A stretch of DNA of 24,522 nucleotides, from IMG/VR virus record IMGVR_UViG_3300043313_000820, positions 1 through 24,522 of that record, one strand, 5' to 3'. Each line of letters opens with the position of its first letter. Position 1 is the stretch's first letter. This document shows positions 2,834 through 16,900 of the stretch, piece after piece. Position numbers and translations under genes: made by a program. The stretch is from a virus. The notes below the pieces were generated by a model. That model was not told the origin of the DNA. It saw only the letters and a program-made list of their open reading frames with translations, and ran no database searches.

Positions 2834-4078
2834 TCAGAGCCTCGCGTCCAGTTTAACTCGCGCAGCGATATCGTTATTGGCGAGGAGTTTTGTTGCGTCA
2901 CCGGTGACAAGCACGGCAGACGCTATTGTACCATTAAGCACAACGCCTTTTGACGACGCTCCAGCCCCCAGAACGAGGCCTGTCAACGTAACCACGCTTG
3001 TGCCTGATGTATGCAGTCCGAGAAGCGTACCGGCCAATCCCAGTGTAGGTAAGCTCCGCATGGTCGGAACGAGTTCCCTGAAAAACTGTGCAGCTGTCGA
3101 GGATGAGCACTGTCCATTGGCGAAAATCTCAAATGCGCTCTCACCGCCCCATTGCTGGTAATACCTCTGGCACGTCAGCAACTCCTGATCATACGGCCGC
3201 ATGATCAGCGGCGACTGCGCGGCGGTCGGGGCGTAAATGCCGGGGAGGACGACGACGCCGGTCAATGAGAAATAGCCGCCGGAGGCCATGTTGTTCGCGG
3301 TCCCTGACGATGACGTCTCGATTAAAATCTGCAAGCCGACGGTGTTATCTGTTTTCCACGTTCCTGTCGTTTGCGCGGGGATGGTAACCGTCACCCACTG
3401 GAACGTCGCACCGCCCGCAAGCACAAACGGAAACCAGCTTGATGTGACCGAGCCGTCAAAATTCTGGATCAGCAGACGATACGTCCCTGCAAAGGCCGCG
3501 CGCGCCCAGAAACCGATAGTGATCGGTTGTGCCGCTGATGTCCCCCATGCCAGCCGCATGATGCGGTAGCCTTCAATCTTGTGCATAAGCCTTACATAGC
3601 TTGCGCCGATTGATGCCTGCGCAACATTTGGCACGACCTGCAAGCATTGCTTAAAACCATACGCATCCGTTGCACTAAAAGTCGCCTGACCGACGGCTGC
3701 CGTTCCGGTTGCCAAATCTGCAATGCCTGTCCACCCATCCAGAACAAACTTTGTTTGCACTCCAGTCAGCAGCACACCTGTAGCGCCGTTCTCTTGACTG
3801 ACATCCATCGAGCCGTTGATCTGCATTCCCGAATACGCCATCGCATCCGCAACGCGCGCATCGAGTTGCTGCTTCGGCACCGCGTGCAGCGCGCTGGTGG
3901 CGTTGCGCGGCAGGGTCAGGTCGCCGGTCATGGTGTCGCCAGCGAGCTTCACAAAAGTCGATGGTGGCGTCTGCGCGCGCCAGATGGTGCCGTCCCAGGT
4001 GTATTGCGGGATGCCGGCCTGGGCCGGTGTCGGATACTTGTCGCCGACGAGAGGTGAGGCCGGGAAATTGATGCCCAT
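2834..4078 (-). CDS. Tail fibre-like receptor-binding paralogue (third of three)
   Basis: The 414-residue protein is the last of a tandem set of three related tail proteins. N-terminal residues 1-35 (MGINFPASPLVGDKYP...YTWDGTIW) match the second paralogue. Residues 43-72 carry the tail-fibre repeat KLAGDTMTGDLTL...AVPKQQL, and residues 82-95 the shared YSGMQINGSMDVSQE. The central region has the beta-sandwich signature AWGTSAAQPITIGFW and a TIPAQTTGTWKTDN stretch typical of a carbohydrate-binding-like domain in phage fibres. LIMRPYDQELLTCQRYY follows, then a variable tip, and the protein ends in DARL. It probably contributes to receptor binding. GAGG inside the previous gene's last codons serves as its ribosome-binding site. 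Confidence 0.85.
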   Translation of the reverse strand: MGINFPASPLVGDKYPTPAQAGIPQYTWDGTIWRAQTPPSTFVKLAGDTMTGDLTLPRNATSALHAVPKQQLDARVADAMAYSGMQINGSMDVSQENGATGVLLTGVQTKFVLDGWTGIADLATGTAAVGQATFSATDAYGFKQCLQVVPNVAQASIGASYVRLMHKIEGYRIMRLAWGTSAAQPITIGFWARAAFAGTYRLLIQNFDGSVTSSWFPFVLAGGATFQWVTVTIPAQTTGTWKTDNTVGLQILIETSSSGTANNMASGGYFSLTGVVVLPGIYAPTAAQSPLIMRPYDQELLTCQRYYQQWGGESAFEIFANGQCSSSTAAQFFRELVPTMRSLPTLGLAGTLLGLHTSGTSVVTLTGLVLGAGASSKGVVLNGTIASAVLVTGDATKLLANNDIAARVKLDARL

Positions 4079-4081
4079 GGT

Positions 4082-5371
4082 TCAGAGCCTCGCGTCGGAA
4101 GCAACGTCGTCGGAAAATTCTATCAGGCCGCCAGCAGCCGTTGCCTGTGCGTAAATAGTAACCCCGGTAGGTAGCGTATGCGCGACACTGACCGCTCTCG
4201 CCCCCGCACCTGAAGATGTGTTAGTGAACAGCGTAATCGCCGGTGTGGCGCGCATTTCCGGCGCATACGGTATACGGACGCCAACATACGCTCCGATAGC
4301 ATAAGCATTGCCGACCGCGTGTGCGCGATCCTTGCGCCAGTACCTTTTGCACGTCAGCAACTCCTGATCATACGGACGCATGATGCGCGATGACTGCGCG
4401 GCGGTGGGCGCTGCGGTGCCGGGGAGAACAGCGAGGCCGGTGATGCGCATCGTATCCGACACTGCTGCCATGGCGTTGATCTGCCCCGGTGCAGCAACGT
4501 AATTAACTGCGCCGCTCAACCATACTCCAGCAGATGGTGCCGTCATCGTTGGTCCAGCGGCCATTGCGAAAAACACCGAAAGACCGTTCCCGTTGCTGGT
4601 ATTCCATACCCCATCAATACAGCCGGGGATTACAAACGTCTTGAACTCGTTCGTATTGGCGGCATTCTGCGTATAGGTCTGGGCATAACATCGGGTGCCA
4701 TCGGCATTTCTGAGTGTGAATGAATATATTCCAGTTCTGACATGCGCGGTCCAGAAGCTGATTGTAATCGGTGTTGCGACAGCGCTTCCCCACGCAAGCC
4801 GGTTAACGCGGTATCCTTCTATTACGTGTTCGGCACCGTAAAACTCACCGCCGGTAACTGATGTGTCAGGCGTCTGAACCTGCAAGTTAAGGTAATATGT
4901 AAAGCCGGGAAACAGTGTTGTGTGGGGTGCAGTCTGCGCTGAGATTGCATTGGTCATGCAATACAATCTCCAGCCGTCACTGATAACAGAGTTATGTATG
5001 TTTGTTGGTGTGTGGTTTCTTTCCTGACTGACCTCCATCGAGCCATTGATCTGCATCCCCGAATACGCCATCGCGTCATACGGCGCAGCCCATGTCATAT
5101 CGGGCACGGGAATGGCGACGGCCTCGGTCCACTGCGTCGTGTCGCCGTCGTTGTACTTGATGTTGAGCGTGCCCTGGTTGCTCTTCCACCAGAGCGAGCC
5201 GTCGGGCACTGGCGTCGGCTCGGTATCGCTGACGAAGACGCCGCTGCCGCCGGCGCTGTCGCCGACCGCGGTCCAGGTGGTGCCATCCCACTTGTACTGC
5301 GGCTTCTCGGGGACGGCCGGGTTCGGATAGAGTTCGCCGAAGAGCGGGGCGGATGGGAAATTCATGCCCAT
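4082..5371 (-). CDS. Tail fibre-like receptor-binding paralogue (second of three)
   Basis: This 429-residue protein shares its N-terminus (MGMNFPSAPLFGELYP...YKWDGTTW) with the downstream paralogue. With the upstream paralogue it shares the module at residues 46-86 (VFVSDTEP...GSLWWKSNQGTLNIKY). YSGMQINGSMEVSQE (103-117) opens the common core, which contains AWGSAVATPITISFW and LIMRPYDQELLTCKRYW. It lacks the GDTMTG repeat found in both neighbours. The C-terminal tip is unlike the other two and ends in the common DARL. The variable tip on a conserved core fits a receptor-recognition role. It has no signal peptide or enzyme motif. Confidence 0.85.
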   Translation of the reverse strand: MGMNFPSAPLFGELYPNPAVPEKPQYKWDGTTWTAVGDSAGGSGVFVSDTEPTPVPDGSLWWKSNQGTLNIKYNDGDTTQWTEAVAIPVPDMTWAAPYDAMAYSGMQINGSMEVSQERNHTPTNIHNSVISDGWRLYCMTNAISAQTAPHTTLFPGFTYYLNLQVQTPDTSVTGGEFYGAEHVIEGYRVNRLAWGSAVATPITISFWTAHVRTGIYSFTLRNADGTRCYAQTYTQNAANTNEFKTFVIPGCIDGVWNTSNGNGLSVFFAMAAGPTMTAPSAGVWLSGAVNYVAAPGQINAMAAVSDTMRITGLAVLPGTAAPTAAQSSRIMRPYDQELLTCKRYWRKDRAHAVGNAYAIGAYVGVRIPYAPEMRATPAITLFTNTSSGAGARAVSVAHTLPTGVTIYAQATAAGGLIEFSDDVASDARL

Positions 5372-5374
5372 GGG

Positions 5375-7168
5375 TCAGAGCCTCGCGTCGGCGGTGTACT
5401 GAAAGTACGCAGCCGCGTTAATGTTGATGGTGCCGCCAGAGTTGTTGACCATCCCAAATCCAGTGTCACCGACAGCAAAAGTGCTACCGCTGCCTGCCGC
5501 CAGATTTGATCCGCTGTTGTCGGAGATGGCCCCCTGCGTACCATTCGCGCTGTAGATCAATACCGTAGGCGCACTGCGCATGCGCATGGCCAGTCTCACA
5601 CCGCCATATGGCAGATTATTGCCTATAGGTGTCGGGTTGGCTGGAACTTGTATTATGACAGCGCCGGGGTTCGCCCCTGTCGCGCCGGGGGCAATCGCAT
5701 ACGGATAACTTTTCTGCCAGTACCGCTGGCACGTCAGCAACTCCTGATCATACGGACGCATGATCAAGGCAGAGCGCGCGGCGGATGGCGCTTCGATGCC
5801 GGGGAGGACGACGACGCCTGCGAGACGCATGGTGCCAGAGACAGCATCGCAGCAGTTCACCTGTCCGGTGGTCGCCTTGAAGTTGCCGACGACCCACGTA
5901 TTCGGCGTTGGCGTGATGAAGGTCGGCCCTGCCATCATCGTGAAGTCTAAACTTAGCCCTTGCACGTTGCCGACTGGATGCGTGTCCGTCGTCATCCCCT
6001 GCACGGTGATGACGTTGTACTGCCAGACGTTGGCGGCGGCTTGCGTGTAAGTGGAAACGTAACTTTTGTTGATCGTATTGACGCTGGCGTTGACGCAGTA
6101 CAGCCCCGGCTTTGTGTGACACGACCAGAACGCAATCGTGACCGGCTGTGCCTGTGCCGTGCCCCATCCCAGACGTGACGTGCGATAGCTTTCAATCGGG
6201 GTGTACAGGATGACAAGCTCGTCGGCTGTCAACGCTGGCTGCGCGACTGTCGTGTAGGCGTAGATGTTGCGTTGAAAACCGGGCAGCGGAATAGACGGGA
6301 CTTCCGACGCGCATTGCACACGCGCTGTCTGTGTGCTTGTGGTGTAAAATTTCCAGCTATCGATCAGGTTACCGGCAAGGCCCGATGTAACCGTCAGACC
6401 CAGTTCCTGACTGACTTCCATCGCGCCGTTGACCTGCATGCCGCTGTAGGCGAGCGCATCCTTCGCAGTGGCCGCGACCGTATCGAGCTGCTGCTTCGGG
6501 ACGGCTTGCAGCGCGCTCACGGCGTTGCCGGCGAGCGCGAGCGGGCCGCTCATGGTATCGCCCGCGCGCTTCACAAGGCCCGAGAGATCGCCGCCAGGAA
6601 GTGCGACGGCCTGCACCCAGGCAGTGCTGTCGATGTCGTGAAAGCGGACGTAGAGGATTCCGGTATTGCTATTCCACCACATCGAGTTGTCGGGCGCGCC
6701 GACAGGGGCGGTGTCTGAGATGTAGAGCGGCGGTGGCGGCGGCGGGATTGCTGCGATCGAGGAAGACAGCTGCTGGAGCGGCACCGCCTGCATCGCCGCC
6801 GCGGCATTCGCTGCGAGCGTTATCGGGCCGGTCATGGTGCCGCCGGCCTTCGGCAAGTAAGGCGTTAGATCCGTATCCGCAGTGATGTTCTTCCACTGCG
6901 TGGGATTGAACGCGCCTGGCGTGATCGCCACCAGCGCGACCAGGATACTGCCGCTGTGGGCGACCAGATCGTTGATGGCGTATTTGGAGCGCGTGTCGAA
7001 GATGCGCACGGCCAGCAGAGGAAGAGGCGTGCCGATCGACCCTGATGCCGCGTCACCGACCGCGATCTGGCGATTGCCGGTGTTGACGGCAATCTCGCCC
7101 GGCTCAAGCGGGTTGGTGAAGGGTATGTCAGGGCTGTCCGCCCGACGGTGGCGGTATTGAGACGTCAT
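5375..7168 (-). CDS. Tail fibre-like receptor-binding paralogue (first and longest)
   Basis: The 597-residue protein is the largest of the three. Its N-terminus (residues 15-55, NPLEPGEIAVNTGNRQIAVGDA) is of the kind phages use to open tail fibres, followed by a short module (63-95, YAINDLVAHSGSILVAL...FNPTQW). Two GDTMTG-type repeats occur at about 107-135 and 201-228, with a polyproline hinge (142-147) and a WW module (148-190) between. The common core starts at YSGMQVNGAMEVSQE (241-255), continues with GWGTAQAQPVTIAFW (334-348) and LIMRPYDQELLTCQRYW (468-484), and the protein ends in DARL. Because only this copy has a long N-terminal extension, it is the likeliest to attach to the virion, with the others added to it or alternating with it; that is inference. 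Confidence 0.88.
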   Translation of the reverse strand: MTSQYRHRRADSPDIPFTNPLEPGEIAVNTGNRQIAVGDAASGSIGTPLPLLAVRIFDTRSKYAINDLVAHSGSILVALVAITPGAFNPTQWKNITADTDLTPYLPKAGGTMTGPITLAANAAAAMQAVPLQQLSSSIAAIPPPPPPLYISDTAPVGAPDNSMWWNSNTGILYVRFHDIDSTAWVQAVALPGGDLSGLVKRAGDTMSGPLALAGNAVSALQAVPKQQLDTVAATAKDALAYSGMQVNGAMEVSQELGLTVTSGLAGNLIDSWKFYTTSTQTARVQCASEVPSIPLPGFQRNIYAYTTVAQPALTADELVILYTPIESYRTSRLGWGTAQAQPVTIAFWSCHTKPGLYCVNASVNTINKSYVSTYTQAAANVWQYNVITVQGMTTDTHPVGNVQGLSLDFTMMAGPTFITPTPNTWVVGNFKATTGQVNCCDAVSGTMRLAGVVVLPGIEAPSAARSALIMRPYDQELLTCQRYWQKSYPYAIAPGATGANPGAVIIQVPANPTPIGNNLPYGGVRLAMRMRSAPTVLIYSANGTQGAISDNSGSNLAAGSGSTFAVGDTGFGMVNNSGGTININAAAYFQYTADARL

Positions 7169-11317: not shown

Positions 11318-11587
11318 CTAACGCCGCGCTAATGACCGCGCGATTTCTTCGTCTAGTTCTGTTGCTGTTAGTTCTGCGCCGCGTTTGTCGGAATGATTTG
11401 CGCTTTCGCCGTCACTGAAATGATCTAACAATGCGCGAGCGGCTGATACTTTCGCTGCTGCCGGCGCGCTTGGGTCACGCATTGCCTCTAAGAGCGCCTG
11501 CTTTACTTCATCTTTTAGAGACACTAGCCCGCTTATACTTGCCGGCCGCGCTTCTACTTGCACTGTTCTTTGCCTTTGCTTCGGCAT
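11318..11587 (-). CDS. terS: Probable terminase small subunit
   Basis: The 89-residue protein has a basic N-terminus followed by a helical core (SLKDEVKQALLEAMRDPSAPAAAKVSAARALLDHF) and an acidic-basic C-terminal helix (ELTATELDEEIARSLARR). The 'AAKVSAARxLLDH ... TATELDEEIARxL' pattern matches small terminase or related DNA-binding subunits of phages from alphaproteobacteria. The start at 11587 is chosen because AGGAGG stands nine bases before it; an in-frame extension to 11659 would overlap the HGG gene further. The gene overlaps the upstream HGG-motif gene by 80 bases. The large terminase lies almost 10 kb away, which is unusual. Confidence 0.55.
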   Translation of the reverse strand: MPKQRQRTVQVEARPASISGLVSLKDEVKQALLEAMRDPSAPAAAKVSAARALLDHFSDGESANHSDKRGAELTATELDEEIARSLARR

Positions 11588-11825
11588 TACGCTTTGCCTC
11601 CTGCCGCTTTGCCATTGCCTTAAACAGATAACCACCATGGCAATGGCATGTGTTCGCATGCTGCATTGCTATCTTGCCGCATGGCTTGCCGCTGTGACGC
11701 GCAATTGCCGTGCACATCCGACGATTAGTGAAACCTTTTCTGAATGCATGCGCGCGCATTGCCGCTTTCCATGCAGCATTGCCGCTTTGTGGTTGCGCCG
11801 CGCGCGATTCTTTTTCTTCAAACAT
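11508..11825 (-). CDS. HGG-motif zinc-finger-like phage protein
   Basis: Residues 38-65 show C38, C49, C60, C62 and H63 in the arrangement Cx10C-x10-CxCHGG (MCTAIARHSGKPCGKIAMQHANTCHCHGG). This is the pattern of small phage proteins with an HGGxxxG-type motif (SGKPC ... CHGG), which probably bind zinc and are often found beside terminase genes. The tail (70-105) is Lys/Ala-rich and helical. ATG 11825 is taken as start; a TTG codon directly before it is an alternative. The last 80 bases overlap the small terminase in another frame. A packaging or HNH-like accessory role is inferred from position. Confidence 0.65.
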   Translation of the reverse strand: MFEEKESRAAQPQSGNAAWKAAMRAHAFRKGFTNRRMCTAIARHSGKPCGKIAMQHANTCHCHGGYLFKAMAKRQEAKRNAEAKAKNSASRSAAGKYKRASVSKR

Positions 11826-11833
11826 CAAATTTC

Positions 11834-11866
11834 TTGATTGACAGCCCTTGGCTCATATGAGACAAG
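11834..11866 (+). promoter_or_regulatory. Promoter region with 20-bp palindromic operator
   Basis: CTTG-G-CTCATATGAG-A-CAAG (11847-11866) is palindromic apart from one mismatched pair. Overlapping it are a consensus-like -35 TTGACA (11838-11843) and an alternative pair TTGATT (11834-11839), 16 bases, TATGAG (11856-11861). The site lies between the leftward HGG gene (start 11825) and the rightward operon (start 11909). A repressor dimer here would cover the promoter; the HTH protein at 14182-14373, the last gene of that operon, is the obvious candidate. Confidence 0.5.
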
Positions 11867-11908
11867 ACCAATGCGAATTGAGATTAACAGGAAACAGGAA
11901 CAAGCGAA

Positions 11909-12586
11909 ATGTTGGTTAAGGAAGCGACTGCGATCGCTGGATCAATTGGTTATCCCTCCAAAATGCCTGGAACGTCTTACGGCATTCCCGCGCAAGCATG
12001 CATCACAGGCGCAAAGCTTGCGAAGGTTGAAGGTTCAACCTGTTCCAGCTGCTACGCCCTTAAGGGCAATTACATCTATCCGTCCGTTGAAAAGGCGCAA
12101 GCAAAACGGATTGCAAGCATCGTCAACCCGCAATGGGTTCCGGCAATGGTCCGCAATCTTCAAGCGGCGCATACACCCCGCAAGAACCGCAAAACCGGCG
12201 AGATGGAATGCCTTCCGCCATATCACCGCTGGCATGATGCCGGTGATTTGCAGTCCGAAGCGCACTTGCAAGCTATCTGCGATGTTGCTTCGGCAACGCC
12301 GGAATTGTCGCATTGGTTGCCGACTCGGGAAATCGGAATCCTTTCCCGTTTCGTGAAAAATGGCGGGATTATTCCTGACAATCTCACAGTGCGAGTGTCG
12401 GCAACCATGGTTGACGGCAACGCGCCGAAGGCGTGGCCCATTACATCAACAGTGCATCACAAGAACGATGCACAAGGGCACGATTGCCCTGCCATTCACC
12501 GGACCGGAATTGACAAGGGCAAGTGCGCAGACTGCCGCGCATGCTGGAACAAGGCTGTTCCGAACGTTTCGTACCACAAGCACTAA
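11909..12586 (+). CDS. GP88-family phage protein
   Basis: The 225-residue product has the features of the mycobacteriophage Gp88-like family. These are SKMPGTSYGIPAQAC (residues 17-31), then CSSCYALKGNY (45-55), a central YHRWHDAGDLQS (105-116) followed by a helix and HWLPTRE (135-141), and a Cys cluster GKCADCRACW (205-213). Cys31/45/48 and Cys206/209/212 could hold metal or an Fe-S cluster. The HDAGD...TRE layout recalls the Gp37/Gp68 (DUF5131) radical-SAM-like proteins, but the canonical CxxxCxxC is not present. The biochemical role of the family is not known to me. AGGA precedes the ATG by about ten bases. It is the first gene of the rightward operon. Confidence 0.85.
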   Translation: MLVKEATAIAGSIGYPSKMPGTSYGIPAQACITGAKLAKVEGSTCSSCYALKGNYIYPSVEKAQAKRIASIVNPQWVPAMVRNLQAAHTPRKNRKTGEMECLPPYHRWHDAGDLQSEAHLQAICDVASATPELSHWLPTREIGILSRFVKNGGIIPDNLTVRVSATMVDGNAPKAWPITSTVHHKNDAQGHDCPAIHRTGIDKGKCADCRACWNKAVPNVSYHKH

Positions 12587-12696
12587 ACCCGCAACCATAG
12601 CTACGCGGCCGGCAGCGCAAGCTTACCGGCCTCGCAGCAGTGCGCCCTGGCGATATTTCCAGGTCGTGAATTTTTGGAACCTGAAAGGCTGACCCC
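12587..12696. other. 110-bp spacer, weak hairpin only
   Basis: Between the GP88 gene and the next gene there is a short GGCCGG ... CCGGCC inverted pair (about 12619-12643) and, further on, an AGGT/ACCT pair around an AT-rich loop. It may terminate or attenuate transcription. No gene is seen. Confidence 0.35.
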
Positions 12697-13035
12697 GTGC
12701 TGAAATATGATCACCTAGATACGATTTTCGTTGGCGTTGAATCCGGCAACGAAAGCGACGTCATAGAAATAGACGTCGTGTCAAACATCATAAGCCGCGG
12801 CGATGACACCATAGACGGCCGCGGCCTGTACCCTGGCCTAGCATGGGATTGCTATCCCGGCGCAGGCCGCTGGAATCATGCCGGCGATACCATCGCCTAT
12901 CTAATCAATGAAGGTCAGATACTCGCCGACACTATCGAAGCGTACTCGGACCGCGATGGTGAGCAATCCGAAGTGACCTGGGAAGTGAAACCCGAATCAA
13001 TCGCAGTACTGCGCAAACATGGAATCATCTCATGA
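12697..13035 (+). CDS. Hypothetical acidic protein, 112 aa
   Basis: No family is recognised. It is acidic, with a beta-rich N-terminal half (DTIFVGVESGNESDVIEIDVVSNIIS) and a compact Trp/Gly segment (GLAWDCYPGAGRWNHAGDTIAYL). It has no membrane segment. The start codon is GTG with AAAGG eight bases before. The stop overlaps the next start (ATGA). Its size, charge and location in a small-gene operon are like those of phage anti-host or accessory proteins, which is only suggestive. Confidence 0.7.
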   Translation: MLKYDHLDTIFVGVESGNESDVIEIDVVSNIISRGDDTIDGRGLYPGLAWDCYPGAGRWNHAGDTIAYLINEGQILADTIEAYSDRDGEQSEVTWEVKPESIAVLRKHGIIS

Positions 13036-13226
13036 GTGGAATCCGTTACGTCATACGCGACAAGGCAACCCAAGGCTGTGACTTCCTGCTGTGGGGCGAC
13101 GACGACGAAGACGGCGCGCGCGAGTGTCTGCACAAGGCAATCGCCGATGGCGTAGACGCCGAACTGATTGTGACACTCGCCCATGACATGGACGAACACA
13201 CCCGCAAGCTTATCGAAGGAAAGTAA
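13032..13226 (+). CDS. Hypothetical acidic protein, 64 aa
   Basis: MSGIRYVIRDKATQGCDFLLWGDDDEDGARECLHKAIADGVDAELIVTLAHDMDEHTRKLIEGK reads as an alternating beta-alpha fold with a conspicuous acidic run (DDDED, residues 23-27). It overlaps the upstream gene as ATGA, so expression is coupled. No family is recognised. Its layout (short beta strand, acidic turn, helix, strand, helix) resembles the neighbours at 13534 and 13814, hinting at a set of small alpha/beta proteins. Confidence 0.65.
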   Translation: MSGIRYVIRDKATQGCDFLLWGDDDEDGARECLHKAIADGVDAELIVTLAHDMDEHTRKLIEGK

Positions 13227-13237
13227 GGAACCTGAAC

Positions 13238-13534
13238 ATGCTCTCCGAAAAATCCAAAGCAGCATTAACCCTGGCCTATGCCACCCGCGGCAAAAACCGC
13301 GGCCAGCTCCTGGCCAATTGCCCGAAGTCCGACACCCTGGCCGCAGCGGCATGGCAAGGCGCAATGCTGAGTTGTAACCCGTACAAGGCCAGCATCGGAG
13401 CGATGCTGTTCATGACCGAGGAACAGCGCGTAGTCCGCGATGAGATCCTGGCCCACTTCGATGCCTTGCCGCGCGAGTATCGCATCATGGCACAGCGTGA
13501 CCGCGAAGCCCTCGAAAAATTGGGAGTCTGGTGA
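13238..13534 (+). CDS. Hypothetical protein, 98 aa, ends AQRDREALEKLGVW
   Basis: Residues 1-45 (SEKSKAALTLAYATRGKNRGQLLANCPKSDTLAAAAWQGAML) form two helices; residues 46-98 carry NPYKASIGAMLFMTEEQRVVRDEILAHFDALPREY and the tail RIMAQRDREALEKLGVW. A good AAGGA precedes the ATG at 13238. The last 14 residues recur, with one K-to-R change, at the end of the 37-residue chimera at 13701-13814. No family is known to me. The stop overlaps the next start as TGATG. Confidence 0.7.
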   Translation: MLSEKSKAALTLAYATRGKNRGQLLANCPKSDTLAAAAWQGAMLSCNPYKASIGAMLFMTEEQRVVRDEILAHFDALPREYRIMAQRDREALEKLGVW

Positions 13535-13704
13535 TGCACACCTATTCAATCGAAGTCCGCTACCGGACCAACAGCGGGTGCAACATAACCCGCGTCAATG
13601 TCGATGCCTTGGACATCGAACACGCCATGCAACTGGCATCCGACAAAGTCCGCCGCAGGCGGGGAGTCATCCGCATAGATGGCTGCGATTGGAGCGCTCC
13701 ATGA
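13534..13704 (+). CDS. Hypothetical protein, 56 aa
   Basis: The frame starts with ATG 13534, which shares a base with the upstream stop (TGATG). The product is MHTYSIEVRYRTNSGCNITRVNVDALDIEHAMQLASDKVRRRRG followed by VIRIDGCDWSAP: a strand, a loop, a helix with a basic RRRR patch (residues 40-43) and a final strand. This beta-beta-alpha-beta arrangement is like many small phage regulatory proteins. It overlaps the following chimeric ORF by four bases (ATGA). Codon use is as in neighbours, so I think it is expressed. Confidence 0.55.
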   Translation: MHTYSIEVRYRTNSGCNITRVNVDALDIEHAMQLASDKVRRRRGVIRIDGCDWSAP

Positions 13705-13814
13705 TGCGCGTATTGATAGGATGCGAGCAGTTCGGCGTAGTGCGCGAGGCCATGCGAAAGTATGGCCACGCACAGCGCGATCGTGAGGCGCTGGAACGCC
13801 TGGGGGTGTGGTGA
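13701..13814 (+). pseudogene. 37-aa chimera: methylase-like N-terminus fused to duplicated tail
   Basis: The first 23 residues (MMRVLIGCEQFGVVREAMRKYGH) are the hallmark start of the phage DNA cytosine methylase-like family (MRVLIxCExSGxVRexFrxxGHdAwScDl). Instead of the expected SAM-fold continuation, the sequence passes straight into AQRDREALERLGVW and a stop. That tail is the end of the gene at 13238-13534 with one change. The remainder of the methylase is missing, so this is a deletion or recombination product. Whether the 37-residue peptide is made is open, though both flanks are TGATG/ATGA-coupled. Confidence 0.6.
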
Positions 13815-13972
13815 TGTTCATCATCGTCATCACATACGGCCCGGACCCGACGGCTAACGAATACGTCGGACCCTTCACCAGGGAACTGGCCGCGATAGAC
13901 TTCGCGAAAGCCTGGTACAGCAATGACAACTGGGATGTTGTCACCCTGCTCGACCCGGAGGACGCCGGATGA
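13814..13972 (+). CDS. Hypothetical protein, 52 aa
   Basis: The ATG at 13814 overlaps the chimera's stop (TGATG). The protein MFIIVITYGPDPTANEYVGPFTRELAAIDFAKAWYSNDNWDVVTLLDPEDAG is a small alpha/beta unit. Its 'VGPFTRELAAIDFAKAWY ... WDVVTLLDPED' pattern is common in short phage proteins of unknown function. It is acidic with no Cys or membrane segment. Its stop overlaps the next start as ATGA. Confidence 0.6.
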   Translation: MFIIVITYGPDPTANEYVGPFTRELAAIDFAKAWYSNDNWDVVTLLDPEDAG

Positions 13973-14178
13973 GCAACATGCATTGCACTCAATGCGGGTC
14001 GCTGTTGTCCGCAGTAACCTGGGCATGCGTTCGCGGCCAGTACTGCAAGCCCGCGAACCGCCAGGGATACAGCGCCACAGCCGTAGACAAGGCCATACAG
14101 GCGTCAAACCGGAGCGGGCGGCATATCAGCGCCCGCGAAGCGAAGGCGATCCACGCCCTTCTGAAAGGCCGGGAGTAG
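13969..14178 (+). CDS. Small Cys-rich protein, zinc-ribbon-like
   Basis: CxxC at residues 6-9 (HCTQCGSLL) and cysteines in WACVRGQYC (20 and 26) form a possible zinc-binding site. The rest is basic and helical (SNRSGRHISAREAKAIHALLKGRE), giving a candidate small nucleic-acid binder of 69 residues. GGAGG precedes the ATG at 13969, which overlaps the upstream stop as ATGA. It sits directly before the HTH gene. No named family is recognised. Confidence 0.65.
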   Translation: MSNMHCTQCGSLLSAVTWACVRGQYCKPANRQGYSATAVDKAIQASNRSGRHISAREAKAIHALLKGRE

Positions 14179-14181
14179 CCC

Positions 14182-14373
14182 ATGGACCGCGAACGCTTCA
14201 TAGCCGGCCTGGCGCAGCTGGGGTTCAATCTCAGCACGGGGCACCGCCTGCTCGGCATAGGCCGGGAAACCGTCTACCGCATCGGCCGGGGAACCTCGAA
14301 AGTTCCGCCAGTGGTGGCCAGGCTAATGGACATGTACGAACGCTTCGGCGTGCCCGACGAGCACAAGCCGTAG
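14182..14373 (+). CDS. Small HTH DNA-binding protein
   Basis: The 63-residue product is a single helix-turn-helix. The first helix is DRERFIAGLAQLGF; the HTH spans residues 18-38 (STGHRLLGIGRETVYRIGRGT), followed by a stabilising helix VPPVVARLMDMYERFG, as in small Cro/CI-like or Aca-like regulators. GGGAG is six bases before the ATG. As the last gene of a small-protein operon whose promoter carries a 20-bp palindrome, it probably autoregulates that operon. This layout is like anti-CRISPR operons ending in an aca regulator, though none of the other genes is a known anti-CRISPR. Confidence 0.8.
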   Translation: MDRERFIAGLAQLGFNLSTGHRLLGIGRETVYRIGRGTSKVPPVVARLMDMYERFGVPDEHKP

Positions 14374-14380
14374 CGCCGCC

Positions 14381-14405
14381 GCCGGCCGGGCGTAGCCCGG
14401 CCGGC
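14381..14405. terminator. 11-bp GC hairpin, probable bidirectional terminator
   Basis: GCCGGCCGGGC (14381-14391) and GCCCGGCCGGC (14395-14405) pair perfectly around GTA. It lies just after the HTH gene, where two operons converge. There is no U-run, so it may act with a factor or merely stabilise the transcript. GGCGTAG recurs at 14389, 14403 and 14418. Confidence 0.5.
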
Positions 14406-14449
14406 GTAGTCCTGCCGGGCGTAGCGCCGCCCTGCCGGGGGTTCGATTT

Positions 14450-14564: not shown

Positions 14565-15947
14565 TCAGATTTGACCTAACTTCAATTGAACGTTGAGGAA
14601 ATACCGGCCAGCGTTAGTCCTTTTGTAGGTGACACCGGCGGCCTTCATGGCTGTCGTGAAGGTGTTTCTGGCCCCGACAGACCGGCCTAAATGGCCACAA
14701 TATGCCCTCCAAACGGCAAAAACCTCGCTTGTTTCGACCATTTTAGGGGGGTCTTCCGCAGGCGAGAACTTTTCGAGGTAGGTACTGATGAAGTCCTTGA
14801 GGACGTTCTCCTCGGCGAAGTAATCCTCAGTGTCCTCGCGTATAATCTGCGCGACATGCAGCCGGCCCTCCTGCTCCCGCTCCACCGCGCCGTCGATAAT
14901 CCAGCGCAGGATCGAAGCCCCCTCCTCGGCGATGAACTCCTTCTCAAGGTCGGGGATTACATCAGCTTCCTTGACTTCCAGCGGGAATGTCCCCACCAGG
15001 AACCGCCGCCGCACCGCCTCATCGACCTCCTTCAGCGTCGGTTTCCTGTTACCGGAGACGATGATCGTGCAGCGGGCCACCATCCGGTAGAAATCCTGCC
15101 GCATCCGCCGCACCGCGATCGGGTCGCCGCCGGTCAGATCCTTGATCAGCGCAGTGTCCCAGGTGGCGTCCTCGTCAATCTCGGTGATGATCACCATCCG
15201 CGCGGACAGCACATCGACCAGGGCAGTGGGGTGCTGCGACTGCTTCTGCACCATCAGCAAGTCCCGAGGCGCGTTGACCGCGTGATCCCCCAGCAGGCCG
15301 GCGACAGTGCGCAGGAACACACCCTTGCCGTTGCCGCCGTGGCCGTAGACGAACATGATTTTCTGGTCGCGCGAGGTGCCCTCGGCGCAGATGCCCGCCA
15401 GCTGCCGCAGCGTCTTGCGATAGTCCGCGTCCCCGGCGGTGATATCCGTCAAGAATTGTTCGAAACGCGGGCCGAGCGGCGTCCCGGCCGGCGCTGGCGT
15501 CACCGCCGTGATCACCGTGATGTGGTCTGCCGGGTTCGCTGGCCGCAGCGTGCCGTCGCGCAGGTCAGCCGTGCCGCCGGGGGTGCCGAGCAGGAAAGCG
15601 TCAGCGTCGAACAGCGCGGAGCGGGCCAGGAACGAAGGCAGCGCGCGGCATATCCGCTCGATCGCAGCGATAGACTTCTGCGATTGCAGGCGGTTCGCCT
15701 CCGCGTGCGTGATGATCTGCACATTGGAGAAAGCATTTGCAAAAGTCGTGAGGAAGAACCGCAGCGCGTCGAGCAGCTCCGGCGTCTGCCGGCGCGCCCA
15801 GTGCGTCTTCACCCACTGCAACCACACGCCCTCCTCGGTGTTGTAGCGCCACTGCTCACCGTTGAACTCGGCGAAGGTGAGCGCCAGCGTCGATTCGGTG
15901 ACGCGCTTGTACTTCTTGACCCACGCATGCGCTTGTTTGATCTGCAT
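14565..15947 (-). CDS. SF3 helicase, D5/P4-type primase C-terminal part
   Basis: This is a replicative DNA helicase of superfamily 3 related to the C-terminal half of phage/plasmid P4- and D5-type primases. With an alternative GTG start three bases upstream, residue numbers here count from that GTG: Walker A GHGGNGKG (203-210), Walker B MVIITEID (252-259), motif C CTIIVSGNRKP (294-304, sensor Asn301), and an arginine-rich RRRFL (314-318). The N-terminal 150 residues resemble the D5 N-terminal domain. A C-terminal winged-helix-like region follows (395-450). ATG 15947 overlaps the prim-pol stop by one base (TGATG), so the two subunits are made together and likely form one primase-helicase. Confidence 0.92.
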   Translation of the reverse strand: MQIKQAHAWVKKYKRVTESTLALTFAEFNGEQWRYNTEEGVWLQWVKTHWARRQTPELLDALRFFLTTFANAFSNVQIITHAEANRLQSQKSIAAIERICRALPSFLARSALFDADAFLLGTPGGTADLRDGTLRPANPADHITVITAVTPAPAGTPLGPRFEQFLTDITAGDADYRKTLRQLAGICAEGTSRDQKIMFVYGHGGNGKGVFLRTVAGLLGDHAVNAPRDLLMVQKQSQHPTALVDVLSARMVIITEIDEDATWDTALIKDLTGGDPIAVRRMRQDFYRMVARCTIIVSGNRKPTLKEVDEAVRRRFLVGTFPLEVKEADVIPDLEKEFIAEEGASILRWIIDGAVEREQEGRLHVAQIIREDTEDYFAEENVLKDFISTYLEKFSPAEDPPKMVETSEVFAVWRAYCGHLGRSVGARNTFTTAMKAAGVTYKRTNAGRYFLNVQLKLGQI

Positions 15948-16900
15948 CACGGCACCTTCTTCGTGAATATAAGTTTGAGCATTTCCTGCGTCTCCGGGTC
16001 TTCCAGCAGCATCGGCCGGTGCGTCAGCCCGGTCTTGAAATCAATCACCGCCAGCCCCGTGCGCGGCGACCAGGACACCTTCGCCCGCGGCGACCCGGTC
16101 GAGCGCGGGTCGTTGGTGAAAGACCCCGTCAACCTCAACTGCGGTTGCCGCAGCATCACCCGGTTGCGCGCCTCCTCCGTCAGCTCCTGCAAAGTGTACG
16201 CGCTGCCATCGACATCGTGAAAAATCGTTTGGTCGTTCAGGTCATGCACCGGCTGGAAGCCCCCGCCGGCCGCAGCCGCGAGCGTGTCCACATGCATGCC
16301 GGGAAAGTTCACCAGCACGTCCTCGGCCGCCATCAGTGCGGCGTTGACCTGCTCGCGCGTCATCTCGGGAAGATCATCAATCCGCACGTTGGCTGGCGAG
16401 CGATCGTTGACCCAGTGATACGTGCGAATCACGTTGCCCTTGTCATCGTGCGAATGCGGGCCGAACGCGCCGAGCTGCGCACCAGGTCCGCCGCCGAACG
16501 CCTGCACCGCGTAGGTGACCTTTGGTTCGCCCTCGATATAGTAGCGTCTTGTGTGTAACTCGCGGAACGGCTCGTCCTCGGTGGACATGCGCAGGAAGAA
16601 CGCCGTCTTCGGCGGATTCCCGATTCGTTCCAGGCCACCCAGAACACTCCGCGGCAGCACCGCGCGCACCGCCGCAGCGACATCGGCCCGCGGCAGGTCG
16701 TTGTCGAAGACGAGCAGCGGCGGGTCAGCGCGCAAGCCGATCGCCGGCCAGCGTGATTGCCGCGACCAGCGTTTACACTTTGCCTCATCGACCTCGACAA
16801 TCGGCCAGCCCTTCAGCATGCAGACCTTGTCGCGGTTGGGCAGCGGCGTGTAGCCGTTCGCCAGCAGTTGCGGGAACAGGTGCCTTACGCTATCAGTCAT
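15947..16900 (-). CDS. Bifunctional primase/polymerase (prim-pol) domain protein
   Basis: The N-terminal 200 residues form an archaeo-eukaryotic-primase-like prim-pol domain: PLPNRDKVCMLKGWPIVEVDEAKCKRW (20-45), the metal-binding VFDND (64-68), RIGNPPKTAFFLR (92-104) and GAQLGAFGPHSHDDKG (140-155) with a His motif. In most phages this domain is fused to the SF3 helicase; here it is a separate gene, 317 residues, coupled to it by a one-base overlap. It makes primers for replication. AGAGGA lies about 11 bases before the ATG. Confidence 0.88.
   Translation of the reverse strand: MTDSVRHLFPQLLANGYTPLPNRDKVCMLKGWPIVEVDEAKCKRWSRQSRWPAIGLRADPPLLVFDNDLPRADVAAAVRAVLPRSVLGGLERIGNPPKTAFFLRMSTEDEPFRELHTRRYYIEGEPKVTYAVQAFGGGPGAQLGAFGPHSHDDKGNVIRTYHWVNDRSPANVRIDDLPEMTREQVNAALMAAEDVLVNFPGMHVDTLAAAAGGGFQPVHDLNDQTIFHDVDGSAYTLQELTEEARNRVMLRQPQLRLTGSFTNDPRSTGSPRAKVSWSPRTGLAVIDFKTGLTHRPMLLEDPETQEMLKLIFTKKVP

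Follow-up and report, generated by a model that had tools for sequence, protein, structure and literature searches.

The locus described here raises the question of whether a run of small viral genes closed by a regulator gene forms an operon that controls itself in the manner of anti-CRISPR (acr–aca) operons, and of what the other genes of such an operon are for. It lies in a 24.5-kb virus contig (record IMGVR_UViG_3300043313_000820, positions 1–24,522; hereafter the window), in which nine plus-strand genes occupy 11909–14373 and the last encodes a 63-residue helix–turn–helix (HTH) protein, at the coordinates given by a first-pass annotation of the sequence. As judged from comparison with relatives, the locus is probably a negatively autoregulated phage accessory operon, the last gene of which very probably encodes the repressor of the operon's own promoter. 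That the variable small genes, here termed cargo, counter host defences is a guess, possible though not favoured, and more general functions in host takeover are no less likely.

The comparison covers 20 non-redundant contigs, all metagenomic, which were found by scans with the HTH protein and with the protein of the first gene, GP88; counts out of 21 refer to the window and these 20 syntenic relatives, individual contigs being designated by L and a number. The relatives share a frame of leftward packaging-side genes, a divergent region, GP88 at or near the head, cargo and the HTH gene last, beyond which there are mostly a leftward homolog of the primase N-terminus and a VRR-Nuc gene; the window primase, used as bait for relatives, gave zero matches. 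The open reading frames (ORFs) of the relatives are uncurated, and cargo was compared by homology because codon-model gene calling overlooked GP88 and some low-GC genes.

The 20-bp palindrome with one mismatched pair that had been proposed at the head of the operon is present at the promoter and reads CTTGGCTCAT-ATGAGACAAG (Table 1). Significance of the palindrome from the window alone was rejected, two such sites being found against 1.27 ± 1.0 expected; its weight derives instead from a position that is conserved, and a sequence that changes with the HTH protein, among the relatives. A palindrome is found at the same promoter in 20 of 20 syntenic relatives (for example TGTCCCGATCGGGATA, the operator of the L007 type, TTGTGCCATTTGGCACAA and TTGTGTCATGTGAGACAA); the first-pass annotation had named absence from relatives as counter-evidence, and the position proved to be conserved in all of them. 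When 732 kb were scanned with a position weight matrix, all 20 head operators tested were recovered together with three other sites, two of which are internal promoters (TTGACA-17-AATATC at L100 4415 and TTGACA-17-CATATA at L099 3467) with the operator filling the spacer, and it is at these internal promoters that the operator-in-promoter arrangement is clearest.

The operators vary in step with the protein predicted to bind them. Among 16 distinct operators the two arms agree at 7.06 of nine positions, compared with 6.10 for shuffled arms (p = 0.001), and the divergence of the inner ten bases of the operator tracks that of HTH residues 27–34 with r = 0.84, the correlation for eight-residue windows outside the recognition helix being at most 0.31. 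Residues 29–36 retain a partial r of 0.78 given the rest of the HTH protein (permutation p = 0.0002), and the rest of the protein adds nothing given the helix (p = 0.26); permutation p-values are optimistic here because the loci share ancestry. The recognition helix STIYRM pairs with TCCCGATCGGGA or close variants, T[TS].YR pairs with TGCCNNTTGG, and both ETVYRI and ATMYRI pair with TCATATGA. Taken together, these comparisons speak strongly for binding of the HTH family to these sites.

The position of the operator within the promoter points most naturally to repression, in line with the Aca operons that have been tested (PMC9410906). The promoter, directed away from the packaging genes, would drive GP88, then the exchangeable small genes and lastly the HTH gene, the product of which would most likely act as a dimer, with each recognition helix reading one arm of the palindrome. 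Since the palindrome occupies the interval between the −35 and −10 elements, RNA polymerase would be blocked once repressor is sufficient, so that cargo proteins would be made in a short burst, presumably early. Within each lineage, repressor and operator would evolve jointly as single cargo genes are exchanged one after another. The regulatory half of the acr–aca-type organization proposed in the first-pass annotation is well supported, in that the HTH gene is terminal, the operator lies at the operon promoter, helix and operator change together and the cargo is variable.

The cargo itself shows high turnover. Presence across the 21 loci falls from all loci for GP88 and the HTH gene, through 14 for P4 and five for P3, to two for P2 and to the window only for P5 and P7, and a further 25 or so small ORF families each occur in 1–7 loci; L010 is nearly minimal, with one small gene, GP88 and the HTH gene. 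The small genes are therefore a variable set and not constant core genes, as the swapping foreseen in the first-pass annotation would have it. Within the window, five of the eight gene junctions overlap, in keeping with the mostly ATGA/TGATG-coupled arrangement described earlier, and the other three are gaps of 110 nt (GP88–P2), 11 nt (P3–P4) and 3 nt (P8–HTH). Purifying selection (ratio of nonsynonymous to synonymous substitution rates, dN/dS, 0.11–0.38) supports the coding status of GP88, P2, P3, P4, P5, the P8 C-terminus and the HTH gene. Eight of the genes had been called unknown, short or odd; GP88, however, is not short, and it is a member of an established family. No significant match to P2–P8 was found in Pfam, PHROGs, NCBIfam or PADLOC. 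The P4 model is all-helical (pLDDT 83), and no fold match to it was found in the PDB. Two side observations concern the cargo region: relatives of P5 lie on the opposite strand upstream of GP88 (L022 570–719 and L028 1423–1587, both minus), and L085 4386–4700 is a highly repetitive ORF with LDRVRPLARV repeats.

Table 1. Features of the operon and its boundaries in the window.
Feature	Positions	Strand	Basis
Left boundary: two overlapping divergent ORFs (11508–11828 and 11318–11659)	11318–11828	−	Kept in relatives
Predicted operon promoter: TTGACA 11838–11843, 17-nt spacer, weak −10 GACAAG 11861–11866	11838–11866	+	Sequence reading and alignment with relatives' promoters
Operator, predicted HTH-protein site: 20-bp palindrome, 9/10 pairs	11847–11866		Sequence and comparison
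GP88-family gene (PF17338), 225 aa	11909–12586	+	Pfam match; in 21/21 loci; AF2 model pLDDT 94
R2, intercistronic hairpin with GNRA-type loop, immediately 3′ of the GP88 stop codon	12587–12636	+	Comparative
P2, 112 aa, GTG start	12697–13035	+	Homolog in L084 only
P3, 64 aa, acidic	13032–13226	+	In 5/21 loci
P4, 98 aa, predicted all-helical, most frequent cargo gene	13238–13534	+	In 14/21 loci
P5, 56–57 aa	13531–13704	+	Absent from other syntenic loci
P6, 37 aa, probable fusion scar	13701–13814	+	Methyltransferase-like N-terminus and P4 C-terminus copy
P7, 52 aa	13814–13972	+	Relatives not found in syntenic loci
P8, 69 aa, Cys-containing N-terminus and conserved tail AIQASNRSGR.I.A.EA..IH.LL.GR	13969–14178	+	
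HTH regulator, 63 aa, recognition helix about residues 28–36	14182–14373	+	In 21/21 loci
Right boundary: D5_N primase/helicase, convergent	14565–15950	−	Domain match

Cargo turnover is also visible in the window. P6 (MMRVLIGCEQFGVVREAMRKYGH-AQRDREALERLGVW) appears to be a fusion scar and not a normal gene: residues 1–23 look like the N-terminus of DNA methyltransferases from phages (55–67% identity over 21–23 aa, with weak E-values of 0.03–0.7), and its last 14 residues match the end of P4 with 93% amino-acid and 71% nucleotide identity, the gene that follows being joined through the same TGATG junction. Most simply, P6 is the scar of a recombination event that cut a methyltransferase gene short against another, diverged allele of P4. 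The P8 tail (IHRLL...GRH) and the HTH domain form one ORF in L003 (4815–5192), L007 (7087–7464), L014 (7146–7523) and L088 (4785–5192), which suggests a functional link between the tail and the regulator.

A repeated hairpin, R1, stands between many of the cargo genes in the relatives; it consists of TGATTGCAG, a variable GC-rich stem-loop, CGGCAATCATGCCG and AACAGG. The related loci contain 25 distinct, precisely bounded copies of about 63 nt, ranging from 58 to 67 nt (for example L087 3991–4052 and 4453–4519, and L089 3874–3936 and 4573–4635), and R1 is present also in more distant GP88-bearing contigs. The R1 model has 20 pairs, with 95.6% of cells paired and 12 pairs changed on both sides, and none of 500 shuffles reached any of five measures; the covariation sits in the inner stem, and the outer stem is weakly supported. 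Most of the copies listed start exactly at the TGA that ends the preceding gene, and with few exceptions the start codon that follows lies 8–18 nt downstream. No Rfam family was found for R1 and no Rfam match was found in the window operon; against the window the R1 model gave chance-level matches inside genes only, so that R1 is absent from it. A different hairpin, R2, is common to the window, L005, L006 and L084, with nine pairs of which five are compensatory, and has an independent copy in L010, there before GP88; folded as a single sequence in the window it has an ordinary energy (z 0.41), the support being comparative and from few sequences.

By sequence comparison, R1 plus one gene behaves as an exchange unit in the relatives. 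L003 4225–4589 and L098 4013–4379 share 93% identity over a stretch that opens with the first R1 base and closes shortly beyond the stop codon of the cargo gene, and their flanks are 66–82% identical or unrelated; likewise, an R1–gene unit is 91% identical between L094 4307–4583 and L089 3874–4150, at different operon positions. It is tempting, although rather unlikely as a complete account, to see in the whole a cassette-exchange locus, in which the co-changing repressor and operator would provide a fixed expression frame and R1 and R2, running from the upstream stop codon to the next ribosome-binding site, would be portable joints for swapping single small anti-host genes between phages. Processing by RNase III or binding of a phage protein are further possibilities for the hairpins themselves.

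Several points weigh against the autoregulated, acr–aca-like reading as a whole. A strict σ70 consensus scan of the window did not find the promoter, the −10 element of which is poor; the operators are the best palindrome picked in each divergent region; the loci are related, so that the effective sample is below 20; the operator lies between divergent genes and may thus control the leftward packaging genes too; and the cargo proteins gave no match to known anti-CRISPR, anti-restriction or defence families in Pfam, PHROGs, NCBIfam or PADLOC, which agrees with the earlier statement that no known anti-CRISPR is recognizable here.

The last of these points leads to the alternative that survives best, to which we give an even chance: the operon would be autoregulated in the same way, and its cargo would be ordinary early host-takeover or replication-accessory proteins and not anti-defence factors. 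The lack of anti-defence similarity in the four databases speaks for it, as does the wide distribution of GP88 among phages that yielded no relative of the HTH gene, and early operons of lytic phages commonly contain small ORFans. However, the repressor-last design combined with high cargo turnover is the acr–aca pattern, and the P6 remnant, the sole anti-defence hint in the cargo, suggests that a past DNA methyltransferase gene, a common anti-restriction device, contributed sequence. The divergent position of the operator, near the start of a leftward ORF, would also fit an HTH protein that acts as a Cro/CI-like switch over the leftward packaging genes and the rightward operon. This we consider improbable: the operator position tracks the rightward −35 and −10 elements, no leftward promoter is recognizable, the extra operators of L099 and L100 sit inside the rightward operon and no integrase or lysogeny gene was noticed by eye among the window ORFs. 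An antitoxin-like addiction pair of P8 and the HTH protein, with the rest of the operon unrelated, is very improbable, since despite weak similarity of the HTH homologs to Xre/MqsA antitoxin HTH models and the joint P8-tail–HTH ORFs of several relatives, a toxin-like partner is absent, the HTH gene of L010 directly follows GP88 without P8 and the operator heads the whole operon.

GP88, the constant first gene, matches PF17338 with 92.5 bits (gathering cut-off 24.4), and the head gene of the L086 type does so with 119 bits; of the 21 loci, nine have the subfamily of the window (PHROG 1392) and 12 a second one (PHROG 1617), both within PF17338. The best structural neighbours of the predicted GP88 model are mostly radical SAM enzymes (for example viperin and TYW1), with Z of at most 6.0, and Foldseek gave zero matches with E below 0.001. 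The conserved cysteines are arranged as C31...C45xxC48, unlike the canonical radical SAM CX3CX2C, which is absent; with these Z-scores a radical SAM assignment is not claimed and serves as a lead only.

Around the operon, the left-boundary ORF at 11508–11828 has weak similarity to the terminase small subunit. A perfect 12-bp GC hairpin at 14380–14406, between the convergent HTH and primase genes, is possibly a terminator, and an 18-nt inverted pair (14451–14468/14516–14533) with many GTGTCGC/GTGACGC repeats is possibly a replication or regulatory site. Farther away (2834–7168, minus strand), three consecutive tail-fibre-like ORFs have GSM/AMEVSQE-like and RPYDQELLTC segments in common, suggesting tandem duplication.

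Because the small genes of a probably self-regulated operon appear to be swapped from virus to virus among uncultured bacterial viruses, the locus is a good place to seek new anti-host or anti-defence proteins. If the reading is right, the HTH gene and its operator offer a guilt-by-association handle on dozens of new small protein families of uncultured phages, the matched changes of helix and operator amount to a natural series of specificities in a very small repressor, and the hairpin linkers offer a concrete mechanism for exchanging single accessory genes without breaking the operon; should the cassette-exchange account hold, the locus would represent a new kind of modular island for counter-defence, with a regulator family of its own.

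Three known systems invite comparison. The first gene of the operon is a clear member of the GP88 family (PF17338; PHROG 1392 and 1617), homologs of which, 38–47% identical, occur in Roseobacter, Pelagibacter and Caulobacter phages, and others in Acinetobacter phages. These isolate phages differ from the window in that no relative of its HTH gene was found in isolate phages; neither was a protein match to P2, P4 or P5 or a DNA match to the operon region, and a search of bacterial genomes with the HTH profile gave one partial 26-residue match, in a Lachnospiraceae metagenome-assembled genome. The PeSL elements of T4-like phages, reportedly the subject of work by Arbiol in 2010 and Comeau in 2014 titled as being on promoter–terminator composites, resemble R1 as repeated intergenic stem-loops among small phage genes that accompany gene-module shuffling, but R1, with PeSL judged by title, is a linker of stop codon, hairpin and ribosome site within one operon and in unrelated phages. 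The acr–aca operons differ from the present locus in that here GP88 is constant at or near the head, cargo genes in the relatives are separated by structured hairpins, no known Acr was found and no homology to the Aca proteins of the PDB was detected: only generic HTH Pfam models match the HTH family, which has a weak match to one PHROG of transcriptional regulators, and no Aca appeared among the PDB sequences that its profile matched up to E 10. In validated Aca operons an inverted repeat lies within the core promoter and autorepression has been tested experimentally, with an RFP reporter (PMC9410906). The likeness is in the design: in 21 of 21 loci variable small genes are followed by a small HTH gene in last place and one inverted repeat lies at the core promoter, the elements of which are weak in the window, and the operator sequence is specific to the type of regulator that would, as predicted here, repress its own operon.

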